The position numbers and the translations under genes are program-made. Of a stretch of 51,552 bases of DNA, positions 4,668-23,223 are shown in pieces (position 1 is the stretch's first letter; each line of letters opens with the position of its first letter). Under the pieces are notes generated by a model. It did not search any database. It had not been told where the DNA came from and saw nothing but the letters and a program-made list of their open reading frames with translations. The stretch is from Planctomycetota bacterium (GTDB lineage Bacteria > Planctomycetota > UBA1135 > UBA2386): assembly GCA_016872675.1 (NCBI GenBank), contig VGZG01000019.1, positions 1 through 51,552 of the forward strand, read 5' to 3'.

Positions 4668-5405
4668 TTACTTGCCGCTGCCGCCCGTGCCGCTGGTCGG
4701 CTTCTGCTTGAGGTAGGCCTCCCAGTACTTGCGGAACTTCTCGGGCACCTGCGGCGGCCGGCTGCCGCGGTTCTTCATGAAGTTCATGTAGGGCTGTAGT
4801 TCGCCCCAGGTGCCATCGCCGGTCGCCGCGTTGGCGGGGCCGACGCCGCCGTCGTCGGGGGCGCTGCCGGGGCGGTTCTGGCCGCCGTCCTTGCTCTCTT
4901 GGCCGCCCTCAGGCTTGCCGTCCTGCGGTTGCTCCCCAGGCTGCTGCTCTTGCTGACCCGGCTGCTGTTGGCCCGGTTGCTGCTGGCCCTGTTGCTTGCG
5001 GCGGTCGACGAGGTCCGGTGTCTGGTTCTCCCGGCGGTTCTGCTGGCCTTGTTGTTGCTGTTGTTGCCGCTGCTGGCCTTGCTGGCCCTGCGACTGCTGG
5101 TCCTCGTCCGGCTGACCGCTGCCGCTCTGGTTCTTCATCTGGTTGAGCTTGTCGATCAACTCGTCGATGCCGCCTTCGACTGACTCGCTGCGCTGCTTTG
5201 CCTGCTGCAGCAGGTCCTTCGGCTTGCTGCGCGCCTGGCCCTTCTTGCCGGACTCGAGCAGCAGCCGGTCGATTTCCTGCAATTGCTCGTCGACGCGGCG
5301 CGCGATCTCCTGGATCTCGCGCACCGCCTCAGGGTCCTGCGCCCGCAGCGCGGCCAACGGCGCCAGGACGGCGAGCAGGATCGGGAGGAAACGGTTGTGA
5401 TTCAT
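4668..5405 (-). CDS. Secreted Gln-rich protein with conserved-looking C-terminal segment
   Basis: 245 residues. A signal peptide (about 1-22, ending ALRAQ) is followed by a charged helical region (25-90), a low-complexity Gln/Gly/Pro region (about 95-190), and a folded-looking tail beginning WGELQPYMNFMKNRG and running to the C-terminus. Such a tail (Trp-Gly...Leu-Pro...Lys-Tyr-Trp-Glu) after a low-complexity linker recalls small proteins at the ends of planctomycete MoxR/vWA clusters. That is recollection of a pattern, not a named domain. It starts 5 bases after the stop of the large Gln-rich gene and is the last gene of the nine-gene run. Function unknown; an extracytoplasmic role with its larger neighbour is inferred from shared composition and position. 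Confidence 0.8.
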   Translation of the reverse strand: MNHNRFLPILLAVLAPLAALRAQDPEAVREIQEIARRVDEQLQEIDRLLLESGKKGQARSKPKDLLQQAKQRSESVEGGIDELIDKLNQMKNQSGSGQPDEDQQSQGQQGQQRQQQQQQGQQNRRENQTPDLVDRRKQQGQQQPGQQQPGQQEQQPGEQPQDGKPEGGQESKDGGQNRPGSAPDDGGVGPANAATGDGTWGELQPYMNFMKNRGSRPPQVPEKFRKYWEAYLKQKPTSGTGGSGK

Positions 5406-5410
5406 GGGGC

Positions 5411-8400
5411 TCAGCGGCCGCGGCCGCCCTCCTGGGTTTCGCCTTCCTGCTGCTGCATCTGTTGCATCGTCTCTTCGACACCCGCCTTGATCTGCTGGAA
5501 CAGGCGGGTGATCTCGGCGTGGCGGTGGGCGAGGCGCTCGATCAGCGCCGTCTCCGGCTCGCTGATCGTCGCGTCGCTGCGGGCCTCGACCAGCGTCTTG
5601 AGGTTGTCGGTCTGCGCGCGCGTGTCGATGCCGAGCTTCTTCAGCATCTCCAGTTCGGCGATCAGCGACACCAGCTTCTTCTGCTGCTGGTTGAAGCGGT
5701 TGCGGCCGCGGTCTTGTTGCTGTTGGCGCTCCTGCTGTTGGCGCTCCTGCTGGCGGCGCTGGCGCTCGCGCTCGAGGGCCTCGAGCAGGTCGACCGTGCG
5801 GCGCTCGACGTCCTGCTGCAGCAAGGTGGTGAACGCGCCGACGTCCGGCCGCCGGCCAGAAAGGCGGCGCGCGACCTCGCGCAGGTCATCGACGTTGGCC
5901 TTGAGCACCGCCTGATAGACGAGGTTGCCTTCCTCCGTCAGGGCCTGGACGACGCCTTCGAGCTTGCCGGCGAGTTCCTGCTCGTCCTCGCCGAGCTGGT
6001 TGGCCCTGGTGCGCATTGCGCGCGACAGTCCGTCGGCGGTCGCCGACTTCTGCGCCTTCGCGGTCTGCTCGGTGATCGGGCGTTGGCGGTCGAGGAACGC
6101 CGTCAACTCGTCGCGCATCCGGAACAGCAGCTCCTCCTGGCGGAGGTCCTGGTAGCGGTCTTCCTCCTCCTCGAGTTCTTTGGCGGCTTCCTCGAGCTTC
6201 TGGCGCGCTTCTTCCTGGCGGTCGAGCGCTTCCTCGGTGTCGCCCTGATCCATCGCGCGGCGTGCCTTCTCGGCGGCATCGGCGGCTGACTGGGCTTTGC
6301 GCTCGGCGGCCTGTGCCTGGCGCTTCTTCAATTCCTCGGCGAGGCGGACGATGTCCTCCTGCAGTTGCTGCTGGCGCTGCGCCTGTTCCTGCAGTTTTTC
6401 GCGCTGTTCGGGCGCGGCGGGACGGTTCTTGTCGAGCGCGTCCATCGCCTGCTGCACCTCCTCTGCGGCGGCCTGCTGCTCGACCGCGGCGCTGGCCTGT
6501 TCGCCGGCTTGCAGTCGCTGTTGCGCCTGCTGCATGCGCTGCTGCGCCTGTTGCAACTGCTCGGCAGCCTTGTCGCGCTGTGCGGGCGTGAGCGCACCCT
6601 GCTCGGCTTGCTGCTGCAATTGCTGCCGGACCTGCTCGGCTTGCTGCTGCAATGCCTGCTGGCGCGCGGTCGCCTGCTGCATGGCCGGCTGCGAGTTGCC
6701 GCTCGCTTGCTGCAGCGCCTGCTCGAGCGTGCGCTGCGCCTGCTCGAGGGCTTGCCGCGACTGCGCCGCAGCCTGCTGGCGCTGTTGCGGGGATCCCTGT
6801 TGGCCCTGTTGGCCCTGTTGGCCCTGTTGACCCTGTTGGCCCTGTTGACCCTGTTGGCCCTGTTGGCCCTGTTGACCCTGTTGGCCCTGTTGGCCCTGTT
6901 GGCCCTGTTGGCCCTGTTGGCCCTGTTGGCCCTGTTGGCCCTGTTGGCCCTGTTGGCCCTGTTGGCCCTGTTGGCCCTGTTGACCATCGGCATTGGCGCC
7001 GTCGGGCGTCGACGCAATGCCCCGCAGCGCCTCCTCAGCAGTCCGCAGCGTCGCGCTGGCGTCCTGCTCAGCCTGCTCGGCGCTCGGCGCATTGGCGAGT
7101 TCCTGGCCGGTGGCGCGCGCTTCCGCCGCCATGCGGGCTGCGTTCAGGTCGGCGTCGGGGTTCTGCGCCTGTTGGCGGGCGCGCGCCCGCTCCAGGGCTT
7201 GCAGCGCCGCCTCGGCCGCCTGCTGTGCCTTGCCAGCGTCGCCTTCCTGCGCGGCGGCGGCGGCAGCAGCAAGCTTGGCCGCAGCTTCCTCGACGGCGGC
7301 GGCCGGGCTGTCTGCGGGCTGTTGACCAGCGGGCGCGTTCGCGCGCAGGCGCTCAGCGAGGCGGTCGGCGGCCTGCTGCAGCTTGCCGGCGGCGCCGCCG
7401 TTTTGCGTCGCCGCCTCGGCGGCGCGCGCCTGCGCCAACTGCTCGCCGCGTTCGGCGAGTTGCTGCAACTGCTCGCGCTCGGCCGGCGTGGCGCCGGCGC
7501 CCGCGGCGCGCAACTGCTCCTTGAGCTCGGCCCACTGCGGGTCCTTGGCTTTGCCCTCCGACGTGCCGCCCCGGCGCGGCGCCCGTTGCAACTGCGATTC
7601 GAGCGCGTCGCGGGCGCGTTCGACAGCGGCCTGGTCGGCGCCGGTGGCCTGCTCGCGCAGTTCCTTGCTGGCGGCGCCGAGTCCTTGCTGGCGCTGCTGG
7701 TCGCGCAGCTCGGCCTGCAGCGCGCGCGTGCGCTCCGTCAGCTCGCCGAGGTCGAACTCGCGCGCCTTGGCTTCGCCGCGGCGGCCGGCGGCCTCGTCAG
7801 CGAGGCCCTGTTCGAGCTGTTGCTGGTCGCGTAGCAGCGCGCGCACGCGTTCGAGCGCGTTCTCGAGGAACGGCCGGCGCGTGCCGGCCTGGCGCATGTT
7901 GGCCTCGGCCTCGCGCTGCTCGGCGTCACGCAGCTTCGACATGCCGTCGAGCAGCGCCTGCTCGGCGGGCGACGGCGGCGACGTCGCGGCGGCCTCCGTC
8001 TGCTCGCGCAGCTCGCGCTGCCGCTGCTCGAGTTCGCGCGCGCTGCGCGCCTGCTCGGCGATCGCTTGCCGCTCGGCGGCGGGATTCTCGATCGACTTGC
8101 GCTCGAGCAGGATGTTGAGCAGGCGCTCGAGGTCGTCGACGACCTCCTTCTGTTTGCGTATCGCCTCGACGTACGCGCTGGCGGCGATGTCGTCGCGGAT
8201 GCTGGCGACCTCGCGCAGGATGCCGGAGCGCTCGAGGTGGGCGAGCCCTTCGCGCAGCAGCTTCACCTGTTCGGGCTTCTGCTCACGCTCGTAGCGCTGT
8301 TGCAGGCGTTCCATCAGGCCTTGCAGCCGCTCGGCCTTGCGGAAGATCTCGTCTTGGTCGCGCCGTAGCCGTTCGAGCGCCTCGGCGTCCGTCTGTGCCA

Positions 8401-8473
8401 GCGCAGGAACGCACGCGAACGCTGCCAGCAGCGTGGCCAGCCAGGGACGGAGCGAGTTGGTGCGCGGGGTCAT
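5411..8473 (-). CDS. Large secreted Gln-rich coiled-coil protein with (Gly-Gln-Gln)21 tract
   Basis: 1020 residues. A signal peptide (about 1-26, ending PALAQ) is followed by long Glu/Arg/Gln/Ala heptad-like helices (about 30-490), a tandem (Gly-Gln-Gln)21 tract (about 497-560), a second Gln-rich helical block (560-760) and a charged C-terminal coiled coil (760-1000). No enzymatic motif is visible. The ATG at 8473 overlaps the stop of the DUF4175-like gene by four bases. Composition and position match the Gln/Gly-rich C-terminal half of TIGR02302/DUF4175 proteins, which in Alphaproteobacteria is usually fused to the membrane half; here it is a separate polypeptide. The protein presumably forms extended periplasmic fibres or a spacer. 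That is inference. Confidence 0.85.
6795..6983 (-). repeat. Tandem repeat: 21 copies of a 9-bp unit inside a coding region
   Basis: On the + strand the unit CCCTGTTGG repeats 21 times without interruption (189 bp). Four copies end in A instead of G (at 6830, 6848, 6875 and 6983). On the coding (-) strand each copy encodes Gly-Gln-Gln, and the A variants only change the Gly codon from GGC to GGT. The unit length is a multiple of three, so copy-number changes would lengthen or shorten the Gln-rich tract without a frameshift. Confidence 0.97.
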
Positions 8474-10806
8474 TTCTTGTCTCGTACGTCTTGGATGCGG
8501 TCTTGCAGGTCGCGCTGGCGGTCGCGCAGCGAGCGCACGTCCTGCACGAGGTCCTGGTAGTCGTTCCAGTCCTGCAGGCGTAGCAGCAGTTCGTTCAGGT
8601 CGGCGACGAGGCGGCGCTGGCCTTGGCCGGCGCGCACGAGCGCGGCGCGGCGATCGGTTTCATCCTTCGCCACCTGCGACTCGGCAAGCGCGCGCGCGAT
8701 AGCGTCTGAGGTGGCGCTGGCGGCGCCGTCGGCGAGCGTCAGCATCGCCAAGATCGGATCGAGGCAACGCTCGAGCTCACCAATCGTGCCAGCGACGCGC
8801 CGCTGCTGCACTTCGCGGTAGAAGGCCGGGTCGAGCGCGACGCCCTCAACCAGGCCGGCGCTGCGCTCGACGTACAGGTCGACGACGCGGGCCGCGTTCT
8901 GGCTGGTCTCCAGCCGGTTCCACAGATGCAGATCGAACGCGCGCATCAGGCCGCGGTGGGCGCGCTCAAGGCTCGCGCGCACGCGGCCTTGGCCGACCTC
9001 GAGGCCGGGCGCCTGCTGCGCGAAGTCGCCGGCGGCGGCGCCCTCGGCGAGCAGTTCGTCGAGGCGTGCGGCGCGGTCCTGCTGGATGTCGAGAGCCTGC
9101 GCGACGTCCTCGCGCAGGCCGCGGAACGATCGCGCGATCGCCGCGGCAAGCTGCGGTTCGTCGACGATCTGCACGATACGGCGCGGCAGGTCGGTCGCGT
9201 TGGCCTGCGGCTGCTTGCCGTCGCGCAGCGTGACCATCAGCACGAGGCCGTCGCCGCCTTCGGCCGGCGGCGCCGCGGTGCCCGGCGCGGGGGCGCGCGC
9301 CAGCAGGTCCTTCACCTCGAGCAGCGCCGTCGGCACGGTCGCCAGCGTGCGTGAGCCGTCGGCCGTGGCCGTGAACAGCGACTTCGGTTGCGGCGGCGCG
9401 CCGGCGTGGCTGATCTGCAGGTCGATGGCGGTGAGACCGAAGTCGTCGCGGCCCTCGACGCGCACGCACAACAGCGCGCCCGGCAGCAGCAAGAGGCCTT
9501 CGTCGTCGGGCAACAGCCAGCGGCCGATCGGCGCGTAGTCCTGCAGCGCGACGAGCGGATAGACGCCGGGGTTCGGGTTGCGCAGGCCGTTCTGGCCGAC
9601 GAGCTCGATCTGGTAGCGGTCCGAGGCCTCGAGCGCGAAACGCGCGCAATAGTGCACGGCGCCGTCGTCGGCCGGCTCGGTGGCGAGTTCGAGGCGGCGG
9701 CCCGTCTCGAGGAACACCATCGTCGCTGACGCGACCGGCGCCGTTGCGGTGACGGTGATCGTGATCCCGCTGCCGACCAGCGCCTCGATGGCGCCGCCCT
9801 TCTGTTCAGCGGCCGCCGCGCCGGCGTATGCGGGCGGCGCCACCGCCGCGGCGATGGTCGCGACCTGCGGCGGTAGCACGGTACGCACGATGACGCGGCG
9901 GTCGCCGCGGTCGTCATCGCCGCCGCGGGCGCGGAACTCGAAGGCGCCGCTGACGCGACGGAAGACGTGACGGAAGCGGTCGCCGGGCCGCGGCGCGGCG
10001 GCGACCGAGCGTGCCTTGGCGCTGTCGTCATCGCGCAGCGGGCGCACGTCGAGGAAGACCTCGCGCGGCACGAGGCCCTCGGCCAGCACGGAGACGTGCA
10101 GGTCGCCGCCGGCCGGCAGCGTCAATTCGGTCTCGTCATCACGGTCGACGCGCTGCAGTTCGGCGCTGGCGGACGGCAGTTCGATGCGCAGCGTGGTCGC
10201 GCGCGGGTAGCCGACGTCGGCGCCGAGATGGCGCCGCACGAACGCCGTCGCGGTGGTCGGCGACGACAAGGCGCCGGCGGCGAGCAGCGCCAGCGCGGCC
10301 AAGGCGCCGGCGCCGACGCGCGCGGTCGGACGGGCGTCGATCAGTTGGCGCAGCGGCAGCGCCTGGACCGTGTCGGCGGTCTCGCGCAGCAATTCGTCGA
10401 TCATCGCGCGCGACTGGTCGCGCAGGCCGTCGGCAGCCATGGCGGCCTGCAGCTGTAGGGCCGAGACCAGCCGCTGGCTGAGCGCTGGGAAGGTGCGTTC
10501 GAACCAGACGGCAAGGTCGTCGTCGGAGAATGGCCGCGCCAGCGGGTAGCGCACGAAGCGCATGACGCCGTAAACGCACGCGGCGGCGACGACGGCGGTG
10601 TGGAACAGCCGGATCGGCAGCGGCATGCCGATCAGCCTGTCGAGCGCGAAGAACAGCAGCGTCAGCGCGCCGGCGGCGGCGGCCACGACCGCGAGTCCGT
10701 GCCACAGAAAGCGGCGGCGTAGGCGTCGCAGCTGGGTCGCGAGCAGCCCGCGCAGGCTGGCGGCGAGCGCGGCGTCGACGGCGGGCGGCACGGCGGGGGT
10801 GGTCAC
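8470..10806 (-). CDS. DUF4175-like membrane protein with large extracytoplasmic region
   Basis: 778 residues. Two close N-terminal membrane helices (about 34-56 and 63-83) and a third near 155-173 are followed by about 600 residues of beta-rich then helical soluble sequence. The N-terminal motif PFSDDDLAVWFERTFPALSQRLVSALQL (about 92-120) and this topology match what I know of DUF4175/TIGR02302 proteins, whose biochemical role is unknown. The GTG start at 10806 lies 10 bases after the preceding stop; the end overlaps the next gene as ATGA. Unlike the fused alphaproteobacterial proteins of about 850 residues, the Gln-rich part is encoded by the next gene. DUF4175 was assigned from architecture and memory of the family, not by a search. 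Confidence 0.8.
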   Translation of the reverse strand: MTTPAVPPAVDAALAASLRGLLATQLRRLRRRFLWHGLAVVAAAAGALTLLFFALDRLIGMPLPIRLFHTAVVAAACVYGVMRFVRYPLARPFSDDDLAVWFERTFPALSQRLVSALQLQAAMAADGLRDQSRAMIDELLRETADTVQALPLRQLIDARPTARVGAGALAALALLAAGALSSPTTATAFVRRHLGADVGYPRATTLRIELPSASAELQRVDRDDETELTLPAGGDLHVSVLAEGLVPREVFLDVRPLRDDDSAKARSVAAAPRPGDRFRHVFRRVSGAFEFRARGGDDDRGDRRVIVRTVLPPQVATIAAAVAPPAYAGAAAAEQKGGAIEALVGSGITITVTATAPVASATMVFLETGRRLELATEPADDGAVHYCARFALEASDRYQIELVGQNGLRNPNPGVYPLVALQDYAPIGRWLLPDDEGLLLLPGALLCVRVEGRDDFGLTAIDLQISHAGAPPQPKSLFTATADGSRTLATVPTALLEVKDLLARAPAPGTAAPPAEGGDGLVLMVTLRDGKQPQANATDLPRRIVQIVDEPQLAAAIARSFRGLREDVAQALDIQQDRAARLDELLAEGAAAGDFAQQAPGLEVGQGRVRASLERAHRGLMRAFDLHLWNRLETSQNAARVVDLYVERSAGLVEGVALDPAFYREVQQRRVAGTIGELERCLDPILAMLTLADGAASATSDAIARALAESQVAKDETDRRAALVRAGQGQRRLVADLNELLLRLQDWNDYQDLVQDVRSLRDRQRDLQDRIQDVRDKK

Positions 10807-10816
10807 GGGGAGCGGG

Positions 10817-11941
10817 TCAGCGTTGGAAGATCGGCAGGTACTGCAGCGGGATCTGCAAGACCAACGACGCGACTGCGGTGCCGAAGGCGTCGCCGGGGCC
10901 GGTGTGGCAGCGCCAGCGGCCGTCGCGCTCCTGCGTCTCGAGCAACAGCGCCTTGGTCTTCTTGAAGTAACCGGTCCACTTCGGGTCGCCGGTCACGTAG
11001 TACGCCTGCACGGCGTAGTAGTGCCCGTAGAAGAAGAAGTAGTGGCCGATGTTGTCGTTCGAGAAGCGGACGAGTTCGCGGTCCAGGTAGTCGAGCGCGT
11101 CGCGGATGATCGAGTTGTCGTACTCGCCGGCCGCGTACAGCGTGGTGATGCCGGCGGCAGTCAGCGGGAAGGTCGCGCGCGTCGGCTCGCGGTTCTGGTA
11201 GCGGAAGCTGCCGCCGAAGTCGCCGTAGGCCGCGCCCCAGCTGTTGTAGGTGCGGTCGTTGCTGCGCACGGCGCTGCGGTAGACGTAGCTCTGCGCGTTC
11301 TTGATCGTCGTCACCGGCACGAAGATGCCGACGTTGCGCGCGGCGCGCAGCGCCAGCACCTGGCACACCGTGATCGACATGTCCGACTCGCGCGCGAATG
11401 GCCGGTAGCGCCAGCCGCCTTCGGCGTTCTGCGAGCTGACGATCAGGTTGACCGAGCTCTGCAGCGTCTGCTTGACGTCCTCGCGGTCGATCATGCCATA
11501 GACCTCGGCGAGGAACAGCGTGGCGAACGCGTGGCTGTACATGCGCGTGCCGTGCTCCGCGATCTGGCCGTCGTCCTGGGCGCACGACAGCACGAAGTCG
11601 ATGCCGCGCTCGAGCACCTTGCCGTACTTGCCGCGGTCGGGCAGGTGGCCGCCGGCGAGGTAGCTCATCAGCGCCAGCGCGGTGACGCCGACGTGCGGCA
11701 GCGGCTGGTCGTCCTGCAGTTCGTAGCCGTTGTTGAGCTTGTAGCCGACCAGCTGGGCCCAGTGGCCCTCGGGCGCCTGGCTCTGCGCCAGCCAGTCGTG
11801 CGCGCGGGCGACCGACGCGCGCAGCTTTTCGTCGATCAGCAGTTCATTGCTGGCGCCGCGGTTGCGGGTCTCCTGGCCCGGCAGCGCGCTGGCGAGCAGC
11901 GCGGTCGCAGCGGCAACGAGCAGGCATAGGGGCGAGTTCAT
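10817..11941 (-). CDS. Secreted prenyltransferase/squalene-cyclase-like alpha/alpha-toroid protein
   Basis: 374 residues. A signal peptide (about 1-22, ending ALPGQ) is followed by repeated helical-hairpin units with the terpenoid-cyclase toroid signature (for example NAEGGWRYRPF, about 190-200, and RDGRWRCHTG near the C-terminus). The catalytic DXDD of class II cyclases is not apparent, and the protein is half the length of squalene-hopene cyclase. A binding or scaffold role is more likely than terpene cyclisation. Its ATG overlaps the stop of the upstream PQQ gene by four bases, so it is translationally coupled. Toroid proteins of this kind accompany vWA/MoxR clusters in planctomycetes. Substrate unknown. 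Confidence 0.85.
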   Translation of the reverse strand: MNSPLCLLVAAATALLASALPGQETRNRGASNELLIDEKLRASVARAHDWLAQSQAPEGHWAQLVGYKLNNGYELQDDQPLPHVGVTALALMSYLAGGHLPDRGKYGKVLERGIDFVLSCAQDDGQIAEHGTRMYSHAFATLFLAEVYGMIDREDVKQTLQSSVNLIVSSQNAEGGWRYRPFARESDMSITVCQVLALRAARNVGIFVPVTTIKNAQSYVYRSAVRSNDRTYNSWGAAYGDFGGSFRYQNREPTRATFPLTAAGITTLYAAGEYDNSIIRDALDYLDRELVRFSNDNIGHYFFFYGHYYAVQAYYVTGDPKWTGYFKKTKALLLETQERDGRWRCHTGPGDAFGTAVASLVLQIPLQYLPIFQR

Positions 11942-14900
11942 CGGGGACCTCGTTCGGAACCGAGCAGCAGCACGCCGCGTGCGCCCGAGATGGCGATCGC
12001 GTCGCCAACGCGGAGCATCTCGTCGACGTTGCCGATGGCCGGCAGCGGTCGCTGCCGACGGCCATTGGCGAGCATACCGGACCGATCGGTCAGCGAGACC
12101 GCCCACAGCCGGCTGCCGCCGTTGCCACGGGCGGGACGCGTCGCGAAGGCGAGGAAGTCTGGGCCGAGGACCGGGCTGGCGATGAGGTCGCCGTCCTCGC
12201 GGCCGAGCGGCAGCGCAAACGTCGGCGCACCCGTAGCGACGCCGACGACCAGCAACTGCCGTTCGGTGCGGTCGGCGTCGGCCCACGACTCGATCGCCAG
12301 CAACGCCGGCGCCGGCGCATCGATCCAACCTCGCTCCCAGTTGTGCGGTGTCGCGTCGAAGCCGGCGTCAACCGTGCGGCGCACGGCGCCGGTAGCCGCA
12401 TCGAGCGCGAGCGCCTGCGCTGCGCCGGTCGCAGTTGTCGACAGCAGCGCCAGCGTGTCGCCGTGCAGCGCCGCCATCTGCAACTGGCTGCCGGGCGGGC
12501 CCTGCCACCGCCATGCGATGCGGCCGTCGGCGGCGACAGCGACGATGCGCGCGGCATCGCCGGAGAGCGAGCGATCGACCGGCAGCAGCAGCAGATCACC
12601 GTGCGCCAGCAGCGATTGTGGGTCGAAGCGACTCGACAAGCTGCCGCCGTCGAGTTGCACATGCTTCAGCGCCGCGACCTGAATCGTCCAGGTCGTCGTG
12701 ACCGCGCCGCTGATCGGATCGAGGCGGCGCACGATGGCATCACCTTCGCGGCTGATCGCCATGCAGAGCACGCCGCCGTCGACTGCCTTGGGCTTCAGTT
12801 CATCGGTCGGCACGGCTCGGCGGAACAGCACCGCGCCGGTCAGCGGCTCGACGCCCATCAACTCGCCTGCGCCCTCGCCGCTGCGCGGCATTGCGGTCAC
12901 CAGCAGCACGCCCTGCTGCACGCCGAGGCTCTCGAGCAGCCGCCGCTGCGGATTGGCGAGCTGCCAGCGCCGGGCGCCGGTGCGGCAGTCGAAGCCGGCG
13001 ACTGCGTCCATGTCGGGCACGACCAGCGTCGTGCCGCAAAGCAGCAAGTGCTCGACGTAGGAGATCGACAGCGCAAAGCGCACCGGCTTCGGGTCGATTG
13101 CGGCGCGCGCGTCGATCGCTAGCAGTTCGTTCTCGGCGCGGCAGTAGAGCAGCGCGTCGGCGGACGCATTGAAGCCGTCGACGACGATCGTCGGCGCCAG
13201 CAGCAGGAAGTCGGCGCCTGGCGGCGGTCGCAGCAGCGCCAGATCCTGCGCTGGCGGCGCGACTGCTGGGGTCGGAGCGAGCGGCGGCGACGCCAGGGCG
13301 ACGTCGCGGTAGGGGCGCTTGCCGTCGTCGGGCCAGTCGCTCGCCGTGTCGGCGTGGCGGCGCAGGCGTGCGGCCATCGCCGCGGCGATCGCCTGGTTGC
13401 CGCGGGTAGCCGCTGCGACCTGGACGCGGCGCAGGAGGCCCGGCGAGGGCTCGCCTTGCGCGATCGCGGCAGCTAACACCTCGGCGGCGAAGGCGAGGTC
13501 GCCGGCCTTCACGCCGGCGTCGAGCAGGCGCACGCGCGCGGCGGCCGCGGCGGCGCTGTTGGGGAAGCGCGCGACGCAGGCGGCGAGCGCAGCGCGGTCG
13601 TCGCCGGCGGCGGTCGAGGCGGCGGCGGCGCGCGCTTCGACGGCGGCGTAGCAGCCGCGGCCGTGCTGGCGCAGCAGGTCGTCGATCGCCTTGCGCGCGA
13701 CGTCGGCGCCGCTGCCACCGACCAGCGGCGCGTCGCTGTGCATCTCGAGCAGCTCCTGCCAGCCGGCGATGGCGGCCGCCGGATTGGCCTGCGCCGCGGC
13801 CTTCTGCCAGGCGACGAAAGCGCGCACCGGCGTGACATCGTCGGCGTCGAAGGTGCGGTCGCGCGGCAGCGGGAAGGCGAGGCGGGGAAAGGCGCCGTCG
13901 GGCATGCGCGCGAGCAGGCGGTCGAGTTCGGCGGTGAAGCGGGCGCCGTCGCGGCGCACGGCATCGAGCACGGCGGCGTGGACCAGCGCCCATTGCGCGT
14001 CATCTGGCGCGAGGTCGCGCGCCGCGATCGTCAAGGCCAACGCTGTCGGCGCGCCGGCATTGGCGGCAGCCTGCGCGCTGGCGATCGCCTGCGCGAACAG
14101 TTCGCGCTGCAGCGCCTGGCGCACCGGGTGATCCGCCGGCAGGCCACGGCGCACGGCCGCGTCGAGACCATTCTGGTAGGCCTGCTGCACGGCGGCCCGT
14201 TGGTCGGCGTCGGCGTCGGCAGGCAGCAGGGCGCGGCGCAGGCTGGCGAGGCGCAGCAGCAGCGATGGGTCGTCGGGATTGGCCTTGGCGGCGGCCTCGA
14301 CGCGGCCGCGCAGGGCGAGGGCGTCGTAGGCGAAGTCGATCGCACCCTGGCGCAGCGACACCACGAGGCCGCCGTCCGACAGCAGATTGCCGAACGCGAA
14401 GCGGCCGAGACCGACCGGCGAGCCGGGCACGGCCTTGCCCTGGCGGTCGAAGCCACGCAGGCCGTCGGTGCGCGCGAACCAGATGCTGTTTGGGCACAGC
14501 GCTGGCCGCGGCGACAGCGCGCTGCCGCCGCGTTCGTCGAGTTCGCTGGGATCGACGATGGCGCGCAGCTGCGGGCTGTGCGCCGCGCTGCCGCCCGAGC
14601 GGGCCGTCACCGCGATGGCGCCTGCGCCGGCGAGCACGAACTCGTCGGGCCAAGAGCCAGCGATCCAGAAGACGCGGTGGTCGACGCCGTCGACCGTCGC
14701 CTGCGCCGGCACGCGCCACAGCGTCCGGCCATTCTCGGCGTCGAGTCCGAGCACGAACTGCGAGTCGAGCGGCGTCAGGCAGACGACACTTGCGGTGACC
14801 GCCGGCGCGTTGTTGGCGAAGAACACCGGCCGCTCCGGCTGCTGGTGCCAGCCGACGAGCGGCATGCGCACGACCTCGTACGACGACAGCCAGCGGAGGC

Positions 14901-16452
14901 GACCGGTCGCCGCCTCGACCGCGAACGCGACGCCGAGGTTGGACGCGCCGTAGAGCACGCCGTCGCGCAGCGCCAGCGGCGACGCGGCGAACTCGGCGCG
15001 CGCGTTGCCGAACATGTTGACGTCCTGCTGGCCGCTGCAGACAAGCCGCCGCCAGCGCATCTCGCCGGTGCGCAGGTCGTAGGCCGCGATCGAGAACGCG
15101 ATCGCGCCGGCGCGGTCGTGCACCGGCGCGTAGACGACGCCGTCGGCGACCAGTGGCGCGCCGCAGGCGTCGTGGCCGCGGAAGCGGCGGGTGCGCGGGC
15201 CGTCGAGCTCATCGTAGTGCGTCCACAGCGCATTGCCGGTGCTGCGCGCGAAGGCGTGCAGGCGTCGCATCGGGATCTTGCTTATCACCCGGAGACCACC
15301 CTGGAAGTCGACGTTCACCGACTTCTCCGGCACCTGCAGCGCCGCGACCACGACGTCGTCGCCGAGCGCAGCGGCGAGCGTGCTGTCCTCGTTGACGCCG
15401 TCGTCGCTCGAACGGCGCTGGCGGCGGCCGAAGCCCGGCACCGACGCCGGCTCGTTCTCGGCCGCGCGCATCGGCGCGATGGTGGCCCATAGCGCTTCCT
15501 TGCGCAGCGGATCGAAGGCGACGACCTGGTGGCCGGTGTTGACGTAGACCGCGTCGAGGTCGCCAACCGCCTGCATGGCGAACTGGCTGATCTCGCGCGT
15601 GTCGAAGCCCGGCGCCACGACCTCGGCCGACCAGCGGGTGTCGAAGTGTCGCGGCGGCTCGGGCATCGCCGGGCGGCCCGATCCGGCGCCGGCGACGCTG
15701 GGCCAGGTGCGCTGCGCGGTGGCGGCGGCCGGTAGCGCGCCGAGGGCGTCCTCGCCGGCGGCGGACAGCGCGCCGACGGCGCGATCCGCAGCCGCGGCGA
15801 CCGGGTCGAGCAGCACGCCGGCGCAGTAAAGCCGCTCGGCGGCGCGCCGTTCGTCGTCGCTGCCGATGGCGGCGCCGTCGAAAGCCTGGCGGAAGTGGCC
15901 GCAGGCGCCGCGCGCGTCGCCAGCGACGAGCGCGAGGTCGCCCAGGCGCAGGCGCGCGCGCCGGCCGATCGCGGCGGCGGGGAAGCGGTCGGCGAGCTGG
16001 CGCAGCGCCGCGTCATCGAGCTGCGTCAGGTCGGCGGCGACGCCGCCCTCGCGTTCGACGAGTTCCTCGTAGGCGGCCTTGGCGGCGGGCGACAGATTGG
16101 CGAGCGCCAGCGTGACGGCGAGCCGCAGGCCGAGGAAGCGGCCGGGCGCAACCGGCACGACGCCGGTGGCGTCGGCCTGCAGCACGCGGTGCAGGCGCTC
16201 GACGCCGGCGCGCACGTCGCCGGCGGCGACTTCCTCGAGGCCCTGCTCGTAGGCGTGGATCTGCTCCTGCAACCGCACGACCGAGAACAGGTTGTCGTCC
16301 TGGCCGGTGGTGAACTCGATCGGCGGCTCCACGGCGCGCGGCGGCGGTTGCTGCGCGAGGGCGAGCGCGGCGAGGGCGAGCGCGACGACGACGCCAAGCC
16401 GCGCGCGGCCGCGCGTCGGCTGTCCTTGGTTCGCGTCGTGGCTCGTCGGCAT
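11938..16452 (-). CDS. Giant exported protein with TPR-like helices and two PQQ-type beta-propellers
   Basis: 1504 residues. An N-terminal signal/anchor (about 16-34, LGVVVALALAALALAQQ) is followed by TPR-like helices (about 50-200), a first PQQ-type propeller (about 260-690; blades such as VVAFDPLRKEALWATI and AYDLRTGEMRWRR), an Ala-rich TPR-like block (about 700-1040), and a second propeller (about 1080-1500; blades such as VAGFDCRTGARRWQL and VEPLTGAVLFRR). The blade pattern 'D..TG...W' is that of BamB/quinoprotein-like propellers, but no dehydrogenase catalytic segment is evident, so protein-protein interaction is the likelier role. The ATG at 16452 lies 59 bases after the vWA gene's stop. 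It is the largest protein of the cluster. Confidence 0.88.
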   Translation of the reverse strand: MPTSHDANQGQPTRGRARLGVVVALALAALALAQQPPPRAVEPPIEFTTGQDDNLFSVVRLQEQIHAYEQGLEEVAAGDVRAGVERLHRVLQADATGVVPVAPGRFLGLRLAVTLALANLSPAAKAAYEELVEREGGVAADLTQLDDAALRQLADRFPAAAIGRRARLRLGDLALVAGDARGACGHFRQAFDGAAIGSDDERRAAERLYCAGVLLDPVAAAADRAVGALSAAGEDALGALPAAATAQRTWPSVAGAGSGRPAMPEPPRHFDTRWSAEVVAPGFDTREISQFAMQAVGDLDAVYVNTGHQVVAFDPLRKEALWATIAPMRAAENEPASVPGFGRRQRRSSDDGVNEDSTLAAALGDDVVVAALQVPEKSVNVDFQGGLRVISKIPMRRLHAFARSTGNALWTHYDELDGPRTRRFRGHDACGAPLVADGVVYAPVHDRAGAIAFSIAAYDLRTGEMRWRRLVCSGQQDVNMFGNARAEFAASPLALRDGVLYGASNLGVAFAVEAATGRLRWLSSYEVVRMPLVGWHQQPERPVFFANNAPAVTASVVCLTPLDSQFVLGLDAENGRTLWRVPAQATVDGVDHRVFWIAGSWPDEFVLAGAGAIAVTARSGGSAAHSPQLRAIVDPSELDERGGSALSPRPALCPNSIWFARTDGLRGFDRQGKAVPGSPVGLGRFAFGNLLSDGGLVVSLRQGAIDFAYDALALRGRVEAAAKANPDDPSLLLRLASLRRALLPADADADQRAAVQQAYQNGLDAAVRRGLPADHPVRQALQRELFAQAIASAQAAANAGAPTALALTIAARDLAPDDAQWALVHAAVLDAVRRDGARFTAELDRLLARMPDGAFPRLAFPLPRDRTFDADDVTPVRAFVAWQKAAAQANPAAAIAGWQELLEMHSDAPLVGGSGADVARKAIDDLLRQHGRGCYAAVEARAAAASTAAGDDRAALAACVARFPNSAAAAAARVRLLDAGVKAGDLAFAAEVLAAAIAQGEPSPGLLRRVQVAAATRGNQAIAAAMAARLRRHADTASDWPDDGKRPYRDVALASPPLAPTPAVAPPAQDLALLRPPPGADFLLLAPTIVVDGFNASADALLYCRAENELLAIDARAAIDPKPVRFALSISYVEHLLLCGTTLVVPDMDAVAGFDCRTGARRWQLANPQRRLLESLGVQQGVLLVTAMPRSGEGAGELMGVEPLTGAVLFRRAVPTDELKPKAVDGGVLCMAISREGDAIVRRLDPISGAVTTTWTIQVAALKHVQLDGGSLSSRFDPQSLLAHGDLLLLPVDRSLSGDAARIVAVAADGRIAWRWQGPPGSQLQMAALHGDTLALLSTTATGAAQALALDAATGAVRRTVDAGFDATPHNWERGWIDAPAPALLAIESWADADRTERQLLVVGVATGAPTFALPLGREDGDLIASPVLGPDFLAFATRPARGNGGSRLWAVSLTDRSGMLANGRRQRPLPAIGNVDEMLRVGDAIAISGARGVLLLGSERGPR

Positions 16453-16511
16453 CGGGCGGCGGCGGTTGGCGGTGGGGTCGGGCAAGGGGTGGTTTGGGAC
16501 GAAGCGCCGGA

Positions 16512-18920
16512 TCACACCAGCCGCGCGCGCTTGCGCAGGAGCCACTCTACGGCCAGCAGGCCGAGGACGATGGCGAGCGACCAGCCGCTGTCCCACGCCG
16601 GCCGCGTGCGCGTGTCCTGGCGGCTTTCGGCTGGCTTGCGATTCTGGAAGTCGGCGACCAGGCCGTCGGCGTCGGCGAGGAAGACGTAGCGGCCGGCGCC
16701 ATCGGCGCTGCGGCTCTGGGCGGCGATCCGGCGCAGCGTCTCGGCGTCCTGGCTGGAGTCGGCCATCTCGCGGTCGGGCATGCGCACGAGCACGTCCTGG
16801 CGCGCGAGCACGGCGTCGGCCGGGTTGTCGTTGGCGAACGCCAGGAACGAGTACGCGCCCGGCTCGGCCATCGTGAACGTCGCCTGGTAGACGCCCGGCT
16901 CGCCCGGGACGCTGCGCAGCGTTCGTTTCTCGGCCTTGTTCGCCTGGTCGCGCAGGAACACCGGCTGCTCGGCGACGCTCGCCGGCTGCAGTTCGTCGTC
17001 GAGCACGCGCAGTTGCACGCGCACCTTGTCGCCGGCCTCGGCCTGCACCTTGTCGATGGTGAGTTCGACGAGGTCGTTGCGCCGCTGCAAACGGCCCTGC
17101 GCCAGCCAGCGCACGACGTTGCGCCAGAAAGCATCCATGTAGGTCTCGGCGTACGGATCGCGCCAGCGCCACGTTTCGTCGGTGCCGAGAAAGAACACAT
17201 TGCCGCGCGGCGCTGGGCCGGCGACGGCGATTGGGCGCTTGCCGTAGGCGTTGCCGTCGGTGGGGTGGCGGAGCAGCACAGTCGCGCCCGGCTTGGCGCG
17301 CTGCACCGGGTGGTAGACGTAGAAACCCGGCAGGCCTTCCTCCCACAGCCGGCGGTTGAACGCCGGGTCGCGCTGCAGCAGCAGGATGTCGTGCGGTTGC
17401 GTCGGGTTGTCGAGCAGCGGATGGAACTCGACGTCGCGGCGCGGCTTGTTGGCCTGCAGCCAGCCGCGTTCCTCGAGCACGACGGGCAGCAGGTCCTGCA
17501 CCGCCGTGTTGCGGTAGCGCTCGGGCATCGCCTGGTCACCAAACAGGAACGCCACGCCGCCGCCGAACTCGACGAATCTGACCAGCAGCTCGAACCACTG
17601 CCGGCGACGCTCCTCAGTCGCCGCGATGCGCTCGGGCGGCACATCGCCGAAGACCACGACGTGGTAGGCGAACAGCTCCTTCTCGGTGCGCGGTAGGTCG
17701 CGCAGCGGCGGCAGCGCCTTGCTGTGCTCCTGCTCGAAGCGCGGGCTGGCGTCGAACATCACCGCCTGCATGACGATGCTCGGGTCGACGCGCTTGAGTC
17801 CGTTCTTGACGTAGCGGTACTCCCAGCGCGGCCGGTCGTCGACGTAGAGGACGCGGATCTTCTCGTCGTTGACGCGCAGGAACCGCACGTCCTCGTTGTC
17901 GTCGAGTTGGCTCTCCTCCGGCAGCGGCTCGAGGCGGAAACGCAGCGTCCAGTCGCCAGGCGCGTCGAACGCGTGGAACACGCGCGCTGTGCCGGCGTCG
18001 CCGTCGGCGGGCAGCTCGGCGGTCGCTGTCGCCAGCGGTCGGTACGGCCCGCCATCGCGCGAGCCCTGCAGCTCGACGCGCGCGCGCTTGCCCCGCAGGC
18101 CCTCGGCGCGCAGCGCGACGTCGAAGCCGACCTGCTCCGACACCAGCGCTTCCTTGGGTCCCGGCGGGCCGACGAGCCAGGCGTTGCGCGGCGCCTCCGA
18201 ATTGCCGACGCCGATCGTGTGCACCGGGATGCCGCGCAGCGCGTAGCTGCCGGCGGCGTCGACGGGGTCGATGCCGGCGTTGTTGCGGCCGTCGGAGACG
18301 ACGATGAGGGCGTCGACGTTCGCCGAGGCGTTGGCGGCGAGGTGCAGGTCGAGCGCGTCGCCGATCTGCGTGCGCGCCCCACGCGCCGTCACCTCGTCGA
18401 GGCTGCGGATCGGCGCCGGCTTGCGCGCCATGCGGAACAGGCGCACATCGTGCGTCTTGGCGAGTTGCGTCAGCAGGCCATCGGGTCGGCCGAGCGCCTG
18501 CCGCACGAGGTCGATGCGCGTGGTCGCCGCGATGTCAGTCGTCGGCAGCATGGCCTGCAACGCCGCCATCTGCGGCGCGTCCGGGTAGCGGTCCTTGCGC
18601 TGCATGCTGGCGCTGTCGTCGACAAGCACGTGCACCTGGTTCTGCGTGCGCCGGTAGGTCGTGATCTCGAACGCCGGCTCGCACAGCAGCACGACGCAAG
18701 CCGCGATCGCGAGCCACCGCAGCGCCGCCAGCACGGCGCGCGTGCGCGGCTCGAGGCGCGACAGGCCGCCGTACGACCACCACGCGAACGCCAGCGTGCC
18801 CGGCACCAGGATCAGCGCGACGACCCAGAGCGGCGGCGCGGCGAGGAAGCGGAACGTCTCCTCGACGTAGCCGCCGTCGGCGGCGGGATCCTGTGGCAGG
18901 ACGGACAGGGCGCCGGCCAT
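16512..18920 (-). CDS. Membrane-anchored vWA / glutamine-amidotransferase-like protein
   Basis: 802 residues. Two N-terminal membrane helices (about 30-50 and 64-82) are followed by a von Willebrand factor A domain with an intact MIDAS start (Asp101, Ser103, Ser105 in DDSAS), beta-sandwich sequence, a class-I-amidotransferase-like Rossmann domain (about 400-600; FGGGVAFLFGDQAMP), and a C-terminal membrane helix followed by a basic end. No catalytic Cys nucleophile typical of a working amidotransferase is obvious. The ATG at 18920 was chosen; it lies 2 bases after the preceding stop with GGGAGG about 11 bases upstream. A TTG at 18947 would extend it by nine residues. It probably acts with the BatA-like protein as a substrate of, or adaptor for, the MoxR ATPase. 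Confidence 0.88.
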   Translation of the reverse strand: MAGALSVLPQDPAADGGYVEETFRFLAAPPLWVVALILVPGTLAFAWWSYGGLSRLEPRTRAVLAALRWLAIAACVVLLCEPAFEITTYRRTQNQVHVLVDDSASMQRKDRYPDAPQMAALQAMLPTTDIAATTRIDLVRQALGRPDGLLTQLAKTHDVRLFRMARKPAPIRSLDEVTARGARTQIGDALDLHLAANASANVDALIVVSDGRNNAGIDPVDAAGSYALRGIPVHTIGVGNSEAPRNAWLVGPPGPKEALVSEQVGFDVALRAEGLRGKRARVELQGSRDGGPYRPLATATAELPADGDAGTARVFHAFDAPGDWTLRFRLEPLPEESQLDDNEDVRFLRVNDEKIRVLYVDDRPRWEYRYVKNGLKRVDPSIVMQAVMFDASPRFEQEHSKALPPLRDLPRTEKELFAYHVVVFGDVPPERIAATEERRRQWFELLVRFVEFGGGVAFLFGDQAMPERYRNTAVQDLLPVVLEERGWLQANKPRRDVEFHPLLDNPTQPHDILLLQRDPAFNRRLWEEGLPGFYVYHPVQRAKPGATVLLRHPTDGNAYGKRPIAVAGPAPRGNVFFLGTDETWRWRDPYAETYMDAFWRNVVRWLAQGRLQRRNDLVELTIDKVQAEAGDKVRVQLRVLDDELQPASVAEQPVFLRDQANKAEKRTLRSVPGEPGVYQATFTMAEPGAYSFLAFANDNPADAVLARQDVLVRMPDREMADSSQDAETLRRIAAQSRSADGAGRYVFLADADGLVADFQNRKPAESRQDTRTRPAWDSGWSLAIVLGLLAVEWLLRKRARLV

Positions 18921-18922
18921 GG

Positions 18923-21181
18923 TCAGTTGCGCCTCCCGGACACCCAACGCGCCAGCGCGGCTTCGGACAGCACGAACAGCAGCGTCGCCAGCAGCAGGCT
19001 CGGGCCGAGGTCGCTGCGGCCCGGCTCGTCGCCCTTGATCTGCGCCACCGGCAGCCCGGTCAGCACGTTCTCGAGGCCGAGCGCGCCGCGCGCTTCGTCG
19101 TGGCCGACGTAGCGCAGGTCGCCCTCGTCAGCCTCGACGTTGACCGCGAACGGCGTCGACGCCGCTTCCTTGCCGGACTCGCGTTCGATCGTGTAGTCGA
19201 ACACGTAGAAGCCGGCGTACACGGCGTCGGCGAGCGGGCCGAGGCGGTAGCGCTTGCCCGGCAGGGCCGCGGCATCGTCGGCGAGCAGCGCCTTCGGTCG
19301 GCCGTCGCGCTCGGGCCGCTGGACCTCGACGGCTTCGGGGCGGCGCGGCAGCGTGCATGACAGTTCGGCGCCGACGTCGGCGAGGAACGGGTCGGTGGCC
19401 GGCAGGGCCAGCCACTGCGCGAGGCCGAACAGCAGCGGCAGCGCGACCATGCCGTCGTTGAGCTGGTTCCAGCGCGCCGGCTGGAACTCCGACGCGATCG
19501 TCGAGGTCAGGAACACGGCGCGGCCCTCGCCGAACGGCCGCGTCACCAGCAGCGGCGTGCGGTCGGCGTCGGTCAGCTGCGCGAGCACCTTGGCGTCGGG
19601 ATGCAGCGAGCCGGACGCAACCGTGCTCCAGCGCCAGAACGGCACGCTCTGCAGCACCTCGCGGTAGAGGTCCTCGGGGAACTCGCGGAAGGCCGGGTGC
19701 TCCGGCGCCAGCAACGTCGCGGTGCGCGCCGGCGCGCTGCCGGCGGCGCCGCCGATCTTCGGGCCGAGGCGGAACGGCATCGGGCCGTCGCCGCCAGCGT
19801 GGAACAGCAGGTTCCAACTGGTCGGATCGGCGCGCTCGCCGAAGGTCACGCAGACGCCGCGGCCGGCCTGCAGCGCCTCGATCAGACCCTGCGCGGCGCG
19901 CTCGTTGAGCCGTTCGACGTCGGCGAGCACGATCAGGTCGTGGTTCTTGGGCACGGCCTGGCCACCGAGCAGCGCCAGCAGGTCGACCGACTCGACGGCG
20001 AACGTCGGCAGCGACGCGGCGTCGGGGTCGAGCATCTGCCAGACGAAACGATGGGCGAGCAGTGGGTCGCCGCCGGCCTCGCCGTCGACGAGCAGGATGC
20101 GGATGCGGTCGCGCACGTCGACGGTCAGGAAGCGCTCGTCGTCGGCGGCCAGCGTGTCGCTGGCGAGGCTCGCGCGCACGCGCCGGCGGCCGGCTTCGCG
20201 GAACACCACCTGGAAGTCGGCCTCGGCTTCGCCGCCGGCCGGCACGTTGACGACCTTGCGCATCGGCTCGCCGCCGTCGACGTCGAGCGTCAACTCGCAG
20301 TTGGCGGTCGTGGCGCCGCGGTTGCGCAGCGATGCGGTGAACTCGACCGGCGTGCGCAGCACCGCCGCCGGCTGCGTTATGCGCAACTCGACGAGCTGCA
20401 CGTTGTCGAGCGCGCCGCCTTGGCGGCCGTCGGCGAACGGCCCGACGTCGATCCAGTGCAGCTTCGTGCCCGGGAGCTTGCGCAGCGCCTCGACGACGTC
20501 GCGGGCCGTGTCCGCCAGCTCGGCCGCCGGTTTCTCGTCTGGCGCGGCGAGCGCCTTGCCGAGGCTGCGCGCCTGCAGGTCGGTGAACACGTACACGCGC
20601 GTCTCGGGGTCCTTTGTCTCTTCGACCCACGCCGCCGCCTGCTGCAGCGCCTCGCTGAGGTCGCCGGCGGCGTCCTCCGGCTTCAGCATCTGCAGCCACT
20701 GCGCGCGCGCGGCGGCGAGGTCGAGGTCGCCGCGGACGAGGAAGCGCGGCCGCACGCCGGCGAACACCAGCGAGACTTTGGCGTCGGTGTCGCCTTCGAG
20801 GTCGTCGAGCAGGCGACCGGCGAGGCTGCGGGCGCGTTCGAATGGACTCGTGGCGCCGGCGCCGCGAGCGCCCATGCTGTAGCTGCCGTCGACGACGAGC
20901 ACGTGGTGCACGCCGCCGCCGCCGCCGAGCAGGCCGGCGACGTCCTGCCAGACCGGCCGCGCCACCGCCAGCGCCAGCGCGATCGGCACCAGGCATCGCA
21001 GCAGCAGGAGCAGCAGGTTCTCGTTGCGCAGCCGGTTGCGCTGCTTCTGGTAGGCCTTGAGCAGGAATTCCATCGCCGCCCACGGTCGCCGCTTGTGGCG
21101 CTGCCGGTTGAGCAGGTGGATGACCAGCGGCACCGCGAACAGCAGCACGCCGAACGCCAGGGCCGGATTGAGGAAGGTCAA
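18923..21181 (-). CDS. BatA-like (aerotolerance-type) membrane protein with vWA domain
   Basis: 752 residues. The N-terminus (FLNPALAFGVLLFAVPLVIHLLNR) is the typical BatA/aerotolerance-regulator N-terminal helix with its NRQRHKRRPWAAMEFL continuation. A second helix (about 56-74) precedes a vWA domain with intact MIDAS (Asp98, Ser100, Ser102 in DGSYS). A CARDB-like beta domain (about 250-330) and an amidotransferase-like fold (about 340-600) follow, with a final membrane helix near 725-742. The family belongs to MoxR-vWA systems linked to metal-centre or complex assembly and stress resistance in other bacteria; the partner here is unknown. It starts 12 bases after the DUF58 stop. Confidence 0.9.
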   Translation of the reverse strand: MTFLNPALAFGVLLFAVPLVIHLLNRQRHKRRPWAAMEFLLKAYQKQRNRLRNENLLLLLLRCLVPIALALAVARPVWQDVAGLLGGGGGVHHVLVVDGSYSMGARGAGATSPFERARSLAGRLLDDLEGDTDAKVSLVFAGVRPRFLVRGDLDLAAARAQWLQMLKPEDAAGDLSEALQQAAAWVEETKDPETRVYVFTDLQARSLGKALAAPDEKPAAELADTARDVVEALRKLPGTKLHWIDVGPFADGRQGGALDNVQLVELRITQPAAVLRTPVEFTASLRNRGATTANCELTLDVDGGEPMRKVVNVPAGGEAEADFQVVFREAGRRRVRASLASDTLAADDERFLTVDVRDRIRILLVDGEAGGDPLLAHRFVWQMLDPDAASLPTFAVESVDLLALLGGQAVPKNHDLIVLADVERLNERAAQGLIEALQAGRGVCVTFGERADPTSWNLLFHAGGDGPMPFRLGPKIGGAAGSAPARTATLLAPEHPAFREFPEDLYREVLQSVPFWRWSTVASGSLHPDAKVLAQLTDADRTPLLVTRPFGEGRAVFLTSTIASEFQPARWNQLNDGMVALPLLFGLAQWLALPATDPFLADVGAELSCTLPRRPEAVEVQRPERDGRPKALLADDAAALPGKRYRLGPLADAVYAGFYVFDYTIERESGKEAASTPFAVNVEADEGDLRYVGHDEARGALGLENVLTGLPVAQIKGDEPGRSDLGPSLLLATLLFVLSEAALARWVSGRRN

Positions 21182-22167: not shown

Positions 22168-23223
22168 TCAGCCCTTGGCGAGGACCTTCGGCAGCTTGCC
22201 GTCGGCGAGCGCCTCGCTGGCGTTGGCCGGCGTCTCGGCGAGCAGGCGCTCGACGACCTTGTCGGTGGTCACGCCTTCGGCCTCGGCGGCGAAGCTGGTG
22301 ATCAGGCGGTGGCGCAGGACCGGCTTGGCCACCGCCTGCACGTCCTCGGCGGCGACGTAGAAGCGACCGTTGAGCAAGGCGTGCGCCTTGGCGGCGAGCA
22401 CGAGGTTCTGGCTGGCGCGCGGGCCAGCGCCCCACTGCAGCCACTCGCGCGCCCACGCCGGCGCCTCGTCGGTGGTGATGCGGGTCTGGCGCGTGAGGCG
22501 CAGCGCGAAGTCGAGCACCGCGTCGGCGATCGGCACGCGGCGGACGATGTCCTGCAGCGCGAAGATGTCCTCGGCGCCGAGCACCGGCACGATGTCGGAC
22601 TTCCGGTCCTCGGTCGTGCGGCGCACGATCTCGCGCTCGTCGGCGGCGGACGGGTAGTCGACCTTGACCATGAACATGAAGCGGTCGAGTTGGGCTTCCG
22701 GCAACGGGTACGTGCCCTCCTGCTCGATCGGGTTCTGCGTCGCGAGCACGAAGAACGGCCGCTTCAGCTCGTGGCGGTAGCCGGCGACGGTGACCTGGTA
22801 CTCCTGCATCGCCTCGAGCAGCGCGGCCTGCGTCTTCGGCGGCGTGCGGTTGATCTCGTCGGCGAGGATGACGTTGCTGAAGATCGGGCCTGGGAGGAAC
22901 TTGAACTCGCGCCGGCCGGTGGCCTTGTCCTCTTGGATGATCTCGGTGCCGGTGATGTCGCTCGGCATCAGGTCCGGCGTGAACTGGATGCGGTTGAAGC
23001 CCAGCGACAGCACGCGCGCGAGCGTCGAGATCAGCAGCGTCTTGGCGAGGCCGGGCACGCCGATCAGCAGGCAGTGGCCGCGGCAGAACAGCGCCATGAA
23101 CAGCTCGTCGACGACTTGGTCCTGACCGACGATCACCTTGCGGATCTCGTCTTTCATGGCCGCATAGGCCTTGCGCAACTTGTCGACGTGTTCGAGATCC
23201 TTCTTGTTGCCTTCGATGCTCAT
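22168..23223 (-). CDS. moxR: MoxR-family AAA+ ATPase
   Basis: 351 residues. The Walker A GVPGLAKT (55-62), Walker B ILADEIN (119-125), the MoxR-typical GTEII and [22 protein letters not shown] sequences (the latter in the sensor-1 region), and the C-terminal lid are all present. MoxR ATPases are chaperone-like motors that act on vWA partners, and three such partners follow directly in the same orientation. It heads the nine-gene run. The ATG at 23223 has no Shine-Dalgarno; a weak TACGAC hexamer (23240-23235) lies 11 bases upstream. The 81 bases to the FtsB-like gene are the only likely site for a cluster promoter. Confidence 0.97.

Follow-up and report, generated by a model that had tools for sequence, protein, structure and literature searches.

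In a draft planctomycete genome (3.58 Mb, 95% complete), two neighbouring genes encode a membrane protein and a Gln-rich exported protein, raising the question of whether they are halves of a protein that other bacteria make as one chain. A preliminary description had proposed this, likening them to the TIGR02302/DUF4175 proteins and seeing in the locus either the ancestral split form or a fission. The stretch of DNA analysed, hereafter referred to as the window, is the complete 51,552-base contig that carries the locus. The two genes (D and Q), a third gene (G) and two smaller features are as follows.

8470..10806, minus strand: D, 778 aa, GTG start, predicted inner-membrane protein and putative N-terminal part of a DUF4175-type chain
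5411..8473, minus strand: Q, 1020 aa, predicted to be exported, Gln-rich, probably coiled-coil; putative second part of the chain
4668..5405, minus strand: G, 245 aa, predicted to be exported, Gln/Pro-rich; putative counterpart of the C-terminal tail of fused chains
8470..8473, minus strand: four-base overlap, ATGA, between the stop codon of D and the start codon of Q
6795..6982, minus strand: 9-bp tandem array in Q, 20.9 copies with 96% matches, coding for (Gly-Gln-Gln)n

The D, Q and G reading frames were all picked unprompted by a purpose-written gene caller that uses codon statistics, trained on the window, and dynamic programming; the ATGA overlap of D and Q, both on the minus strand, was confirmed as described. 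A simple hydropathy rule also bore out the claim that each half has an export signal or helices of its own: Q has a signal-like start, and D has hydrophobic segments at residues 37–55, 67–85 and 164–182, plus one at 348–366. The last of these falls within the predicted beta region and probably does not form a membrane helix. D is predicted to consist of three N-terminal hydrophobic segments followed by beta-rich (Ig-like) and helical parts in the periplasm. The AlphaFold model of D (window, L032 and L033) had a mean pLDDT of 53.2 and a pTM of 0.28, too poor for a fold search.

D is preceded, in the same direction, by the following genes, whereas Q and G lie downstream of it.

10817..11941, minus strand: cyc, squalene-cyclase/prenyltransferase-like alpha-alpha toroid protein with a signal-like start; precedes D in type-A operons (defined below)
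11938..16515, minus strand: propeller protein, 1525 aa, PQQ-type beta-propeller repeats
16512..18920, minus strand: V, 802 aa, VWA domain (24.6 bits; cut-off 23.8)
18923..21181, minus strand: BatA-type VWA protein, BatA N-terminal domain (62.8 bits)
21194..22108, minus strand: DUF58 (VWA-like) protein (147.9 bits)
22168..23223, minus strand: MoxR-type AAA+ ATPase, AAA_3 (212.4 bits)

A single gene row thus combines AAA_3, DUF58, BatA N-terminal and VWA domains, with VWA-type Pfam scores of 24.6–39.8 bits, which places it among the MoxR/Bat operons. It resembles the MoxR-DUF58-BatA (‘Bat’/aerotolerance) operons in having the MoxR AAA_3, DUF58, BatA and VWA genes in the same direction, but differs from them in additionally carrying the propeller protein, the cyclase-like protein and then D-Q-G. 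We know of no described Bat operon with this extension, and a full-text search found no literature joining MoxR, BatA and Planctomycetes. On the other side of the operon lie RodA and PBP2 genes that are transcribed towards it.

To learn how general the split between D and Q is, we turned to the relatives of this bacterium. A search for D gave a match in 100 of 101 genomes, its own included; in a few of the 101, the D matches listed are the type-B copy (see below) alone. From many of the D-matching genomes we extracted stretches of up to 20 kb around the match and called their genes. We define as type A those operons in which D comes after cyc and the propeller gene, so that cyc is part of the definition. 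D was a separate gene, encoding 681–815 aa, in 50 of 50 type-A operons, and Q was the next gene in all 48 of those that show one. These 50 operons were chosen through a D or DUF4175 match and are not a random sample; they were counted without a length condition because an earlier set of 36 type-A and 14 type-B operons had demanded 600–900 aa for D, which built the outcome ‘D always separate’ into the count. With D separate in 50 of 50 operons and Q next in 48 of 48, type-A operons ordinarily have D and Q as separate genes, and the locus in the window is no special case. D and Q overlapped in 14 of 35 type-A pairs, in ten of these by four bases. In one genome (G044), a split type-A operon (L050) coexists with a second MoxR/BatA operon that encodes a single chain of 1480 aa (L069:5835-10277).

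The type-B operon is a paralogous one with the order BatA-V-D-Q. Among 27 D genes found directly after V or BatA in such operons, six are long chains (950 aa or more), and D and Q are mostly apart in type B too. The Q proteins of the two types are related to each other (profile comparison, E 2.9e-33 over 346 columns). As for the view that the Gln-rich part had been expanded to 1020 residues, the Gln-rich stretch is present, but 1020 is for the most part a usual length for Q: 32 of 35 type-A Q proteins have 528–640 or 911–1161 aa, and the genes of the other three (153, 310 and 595 aa) are cut by contig ends. The Gln content of type-A Q genes ranges from 3.6 to 17.4%. Since the nearest relative, L032, differs from the window within the 9-bp array at 6795–6982, the length of this array probably varies between relatives.

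We then compared the proteins with the two families named at the outset. D of the window had no DUF4175 match up to an E-value of 1 and no NCBIfam match, so that the DUF4175 assignment of the 778-residue protein fails for the sequence itself. Standard hmmscan found DUF4175 in none of 32 type-A D proteins at an E-value of 0.01, and in 8 of 31 type-A Q proteins at the same threshold; Q of the window scored 16.3 bits, below the 27.3-bit cut-off. TIGR02302, with a cut-off of 394.3 bits, had no match in the organism's own genome at an E-value of 10 and none among the 32 D proteins. The likeness originally put forward to this alphaproteobacterial low-complexity family would be a membrane part combined with a Gln/Gly-rich part; the fused planctomycete chain L157 matches the second half of the TIGR02302 model at 23.1 bits, which is sub-threshold.

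The relatives of D gave a different picture. The split D proteins of L174 and L165 each scored 52.1 bits against DUF4175 by hmmscan, well over the cut-off of 27.3, and were also matched by our D profile (E 1.2e-76 and 1.7e-83, respectively). Four long chains exceeded the DUF4175 cut-off with two stretches each (hmmscan; L154, 62.0; L157, 49.4; L170, 33.1; and L069, 30.5 bits). In a profile-profile comparison, D aligned with seven fused planctomycete chains over 410 columns (probability 99.7, E 1.6e-26). The matches fall on the model in the same order as the genes: D homologues cover approximately positions 180–340, the Ig-like part, and Q homologues and the second half of the fused chains cover approximately positions 500–823. 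PF13779 (DUF4175) describes one chain of 825 model positions, whereas here three genes are present.

In a genome profile search, DUF4175 exceeded its cut-off in 14 out of 61 near genomes and in 98 out of 292 sampled across the phylum, with D genes covering model positions near 180–340 and Q genes those near 500–794. This search also gave scores over the cut-off for some type-A D proteins, as well as for L171 (54.9 bits) and L175 (53.1 bits), where hmmscan gave none; L162, too, had no DUF4175 match by hmmscan. Such scores thus depend on filters, and for this reason we base the DUF4175 link on L174, L165, the long chains and the D profile alignment. These data support the classification of D of the window as a DUF4175-type protein through its relatives, not by its own sequence.

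Natural fusions connect D with Q directly. L162 (family f17) has D followed by Q in a single ORF of 1342 aa, in which the D profile matches residues 4–614 (273.7 bits) and 633–726 (16.7 bits) and the Q profile matches residues 740–913, 906–1072 and 1059–1337 (best, 119.5 bits); a separate G-like gene of 218 aa comes next. In its sister genome G109, where the caller had cut the gene in two, an open frame of 1345 spans the same match, and the D+Q frames of G109 and G167 are open with no interruption. L170 (f30) likewise has D then Q in a single chain of 1151 aa (Q, 57.9 bits). L154–L159 and L166 are one-chain forms of 1106–1155 aa that end in the tail motif described below, and both DUF4175 halves were seen in L154 and L157 by hmmscan and also in L155 and L156 by the genome profile search. 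Other lineages carry either a D-Q chain with a separate G or one long chain. The chains of L154–L159 and L166 are each followed by a gene of 529–564 aa that matches none of the MoxR, BatA, V and cyc models; the starts inspected in four of these genes (L154, L155, L157 and L158) look exported or signal-like. G153 (L160:4160-8143) has D and Q in one frame with a single TAG at residue 804. We rejected it as a fresh fission: the TAG falls within Q rather than at the junction of D and Q, and is for that reason more likely an error or the mark of a broken gene.

The proposal that the pair represents the halves of a DUF4175-type chain thus holds as far as D aligns with fused chains and D+Q fusions exist, but not as a direct match of D of the window. 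The relation of Q to the C-terminal part of the family is similarly supported by the L162 and L170 fusions, but not by the sub-threshold score of Q itself. Q and G could instead be independent exported coiled-coil proteins that resemble the second half of the fused chains by convergence of coiled-coil and Gln-rich sequences. Such convergence would account for the weak alignment of the Q profile with the fused chains of f45 and f67 (91 columns, probability 79), for the collagen-like low-complexity matches that dominate Q of the window and for the confinement of the G alignment to a single short motif. Yet the Q profile recognises the stretch behind D in the single ORFs of L162 and L170 at the scores given above, and its matches are confined to the neighbourhood of D. 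At an E-value of 1e-3 it matched 84 of 1033 genes, 83 of which contain a D or lie within three genes of one; the remaining match (L189) lies beside a D fragment, and none of the 949 genes left over in these loci was matched. All 61 genomes searched contained a match to the profile. Together with the type-A to type-B similarity over 346 columns, these results make convergence improbable.

The earlier two-part account overlooked a third piece, G (4668–5405). G ends in WGELQPYMNFMKNRGSRPPQVPEKFRKYWEAYLKQ plus a short Gly/Ser-rich end, and a closing motif of roughly the form WGxLP...LPxxYRxxxxxYYRR is shared by G proteins and fused chains at their ends. A strict pattern covering the second part of this motif was found downstream of Q in 51 of the 61 split loci in which another gene follows; of the 23 long chains, nine end in it and the other 14 have no strict form. 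As the pattern was written after the sequences had been seen, the figure of 51 is a description, for which the controls are its occurrence in 3 of 703 other genes and in D or Q of none of the 61 split loci. Several of the ten loci lacking the strict motif show a variant by eye (L067, L072, L073, L175, L187 and L192). The G profile aligned in register with the tail of the fused chains (probability 16, E 0.0015), an alignment that is not significant alone. On these sequence comparisons, G quite probably corresponds to the C-terminal tail of the fused chains.

If a periplasmic chain is split, each piece must leave the cytoplasm by itself, and own signals on Q and G are what such a chain needs. 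By the hydropathy rule, 31 of 34 Q proteins of type A and all 12 of type B had signal-like starts, as did 29 of 31 G proteins of type A and 10 of 11 of type B (the mis-called Q of L055 was left out of the type-B counts). The background in these loci, 366 of 815 remaining genes, is high because the rule also calls some membrane proteins. Type-A D proteins had three hydrophobic segments in 21 of 36 cases, two in nine, one in three, four in two and none in one.

Whether the split or the single chain came first was addressed by trees of the D region, a first one with 92 rows and a second one with 58 chosen rows and bootstraps. The first tree lacked seven long chains of f45 and f67, dropped for low column fill, and L162, dropped as a near-duplicate; four of the seven were restored in the second, and D of L046 was excluded from A1. 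L160 was counted as split in the first tree and as ‘long’ in the second and in the AU test. Split and long forms require at least three changes (3–5 in the bootstrap trees); the first tree needs seven changes of the label ‘split’, a number obtained with L160 mislabelled and seven unclear rows counted in. The deep branches are weak (48/83), many rows are long and the root is not fixed, and these trees of split and fused forms decide neither way between the ancestral split and the fission envisaged at first. There is about an even chance that the split is derived and that a one-chain ancestor underwent fission, a single time in the type-A lineage and perhaps again elsewhere, as the one-chain form of PF13779 itself and the presence of long chains on several deep branches, with split rows in nested groups, would suggest. 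The weak deep branches, the unfixed root and the 3 to 5 changes needed speak against it and make re-fusion possible; a single clade of all split rows was, moreover, not rejected (AU test, p = 0.193). We regard it as possible but rather unlikely that the split is ancestral in the phylum and the long chains are repeated fusions. Chains of the L162 type keep G separate, as expected of stepwise fusion, and the long chain L069 adjoins a split group in the trees, but many different families contain long chains and the Pfam model itself describes a single chain. Both are histories of the same three pieces and not alternatives to their acting as one complex.

We consider it likely that D, Q and G, as parts of a single DUF4175-type envelope protein, form one complex in the periplasm, served by the MoxR/DUF58/BatA genes. 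Support for this comes from the gene order, the signal-like starts, the homology of D to fused chains, the D+Q fusions and the shared C-terminal motif. D would be anchored in the inner membrane by its three helices, with the Ig-like and helical domains in the periplasm, where Q and G, exported on their own signals, would join it and do the job of the second half and the tail of the one-chain relatives. The MoxR ATPase and its VWA partners would probably assemble or remodel the complex, which may work in envelope maintenance. To our knowledge no mechanism has been assigned to DUF4175 or TIGR02302 proteins, and the accessible portions of the literature on these families yielded none.

We infer an envelope complex helped by MoxR from the gene order and from the following literature. 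RSP_0730, a TIGR02302 protein of Rhodobacter, is among the targets of CenR, for whose direct targets of no known function the authors proposed envelope roles (PMC9275681); an Azorhizobium TIGR02302 mutant overproduces exopolysaccharide, according to a title (Sato 2016) cited in PMC6842974; and MoxR-VWA pairs have been described as chaperones or in metal insertion (PMC9976466, PMC13036017, PMC3893208, PMC10585395). AdvA of Acinetobacter, called a DUF4175 protein in PMC7481262, was set aside in this functional reading. Reports of MoxR-VWA-beta-propeller ternary conflict systems (PMC7159879) offer another reading of the operon, with D, Q and G as accessory or target parts. The MoxR protein of the window (22168–23223) indeed exceeds the cut-off of PF20030 (bpMoxR; 37.4 bits against 27), and VWA and propeller genes are present, as in those systems. 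Its score on the general AAA_3 model is, however, 212.4 bits, and D, Q and G would be additions to the ternary arrangement. D is, furthermore, widely present, and its occurrence in 100 of 101 genomes resembles that of a core envelope system more than the patchy distribution of a conflict system. We consider a conflict system very improbable.

Outside the window, the organism's own genome (G000) encodes a paralogous type-B Q on contig 100 (L054:429-2303, minus strand), which is interrupted by an in-frame UGA, as are related type-B Q genes at L198–L205, L209, L210, L212, L109, L068 and L071. The in-frame stops found in type-B Q genes are TGA only. We counted a UGA as selenocysteine (Sec) only before the conserved motif LVPxSAEL; the TGA in some other type-B Q matches (e.g. 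G021 and L067) was rejected as Sec, being a terminal stop. Among the 34 family genomes read (G000–G033), the LVPxSAEL stretch was present in 32 and not found in G026 and G031. Before it, 15 of the 32 genomes, including the organism's own, have UGA, 14 have cysteine and three have neither. The UGA forms have one or two UGA 4–11 codons before the motif (for instance, GHUTGNGGGGQPPLVP, GHUTSCGGGGQPPLVP and GTUSTGGTUTPPLVP, as against GQCNCNGQPPLVP), and the cysteine forms have CNC, CGSC, CCMC or a single C at the site, so that residue patterns such as UxxC, UxxxU and CxC stand just before LVPxSAEL. Of 33 type-A Q genes, 22 have a recognisable LV motif, and all 22 are free of cysteine over the 25 residues that precede it.

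In 14 of the 15 UGA forms the frame continues after the first UGA for 80–83 codons to a common end; the 15th is cut by a contig end. Judged by substitutions, the stretch after the UGA is under purifying selection (pooled pN/pS of 0.40, versus 0.30 over the 150 codons before, in seven pairs). Thirteen of the 14 genes with an intact end also terminate in TGA; this counts against the Sec reading, for the same gene would have to use UGA both as Sec and as stop, which needs a local signal. Hairpins follow the UGA, and single folds of this region gave a mean z of -1.59 for the 15 UGA forms and -0.34 for 20 others. The consensus fold is weak, with four pairs, one of them changed on both sides, and an unfavourable covariation term of +0.36. 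Seven of the 15 sequences have in common GGUGGC-GGUC-(A/C)GCCACC, a hairpin that we take to be like the SECIS loop of E. coli fdhF. The organism's own genome encodes tRNA-Sec (72.7 bits, anticodon TCA), selB (343.5 bits) and selA (447.5 bits), the latter two over their cut-offs. A tRNA-Sec scoring at least 69 bits is listed for every UGA genome except G005 (14 of 15) and for 14 of the remaining 17; having one does not in itself track the UGA. Selenoproteins are known in planctomycetes (PMC4807772), and among the papers listed for selenoproteins together with Planctomycetes, Planctomycetota or MoxR, none describes the type-B Q family, as judged by titles and opening lines. Type-B Q is probably a new selenoprotein family. 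It is also fairly likely that these cells have two MoxR-linked forms of the three-piece DUF4175 complex, a cysteine-poor one, encoded in the window, and a redox one with a periplasmic selenoprotein coiled-coil subunit.

The natural splits described here give testable domain boundaries for DUF4175-type chains and suggest which parts act together, and the natural fusions (L162, L170 and L154) indicate which pieces to combine in a pull-down. The MoxR/VWA link suggests a client for a MoxR group that has no known one. If confirmed, type-B Q would add a family of Sec-containing proteins and hint at a redox or metal-handling version of the complex; if true, the assembly of a Sec- or Cys-bearing complex of the envelope, driven by MoxR/VWA proteins, would represent a selenoprotein system of a new kind.
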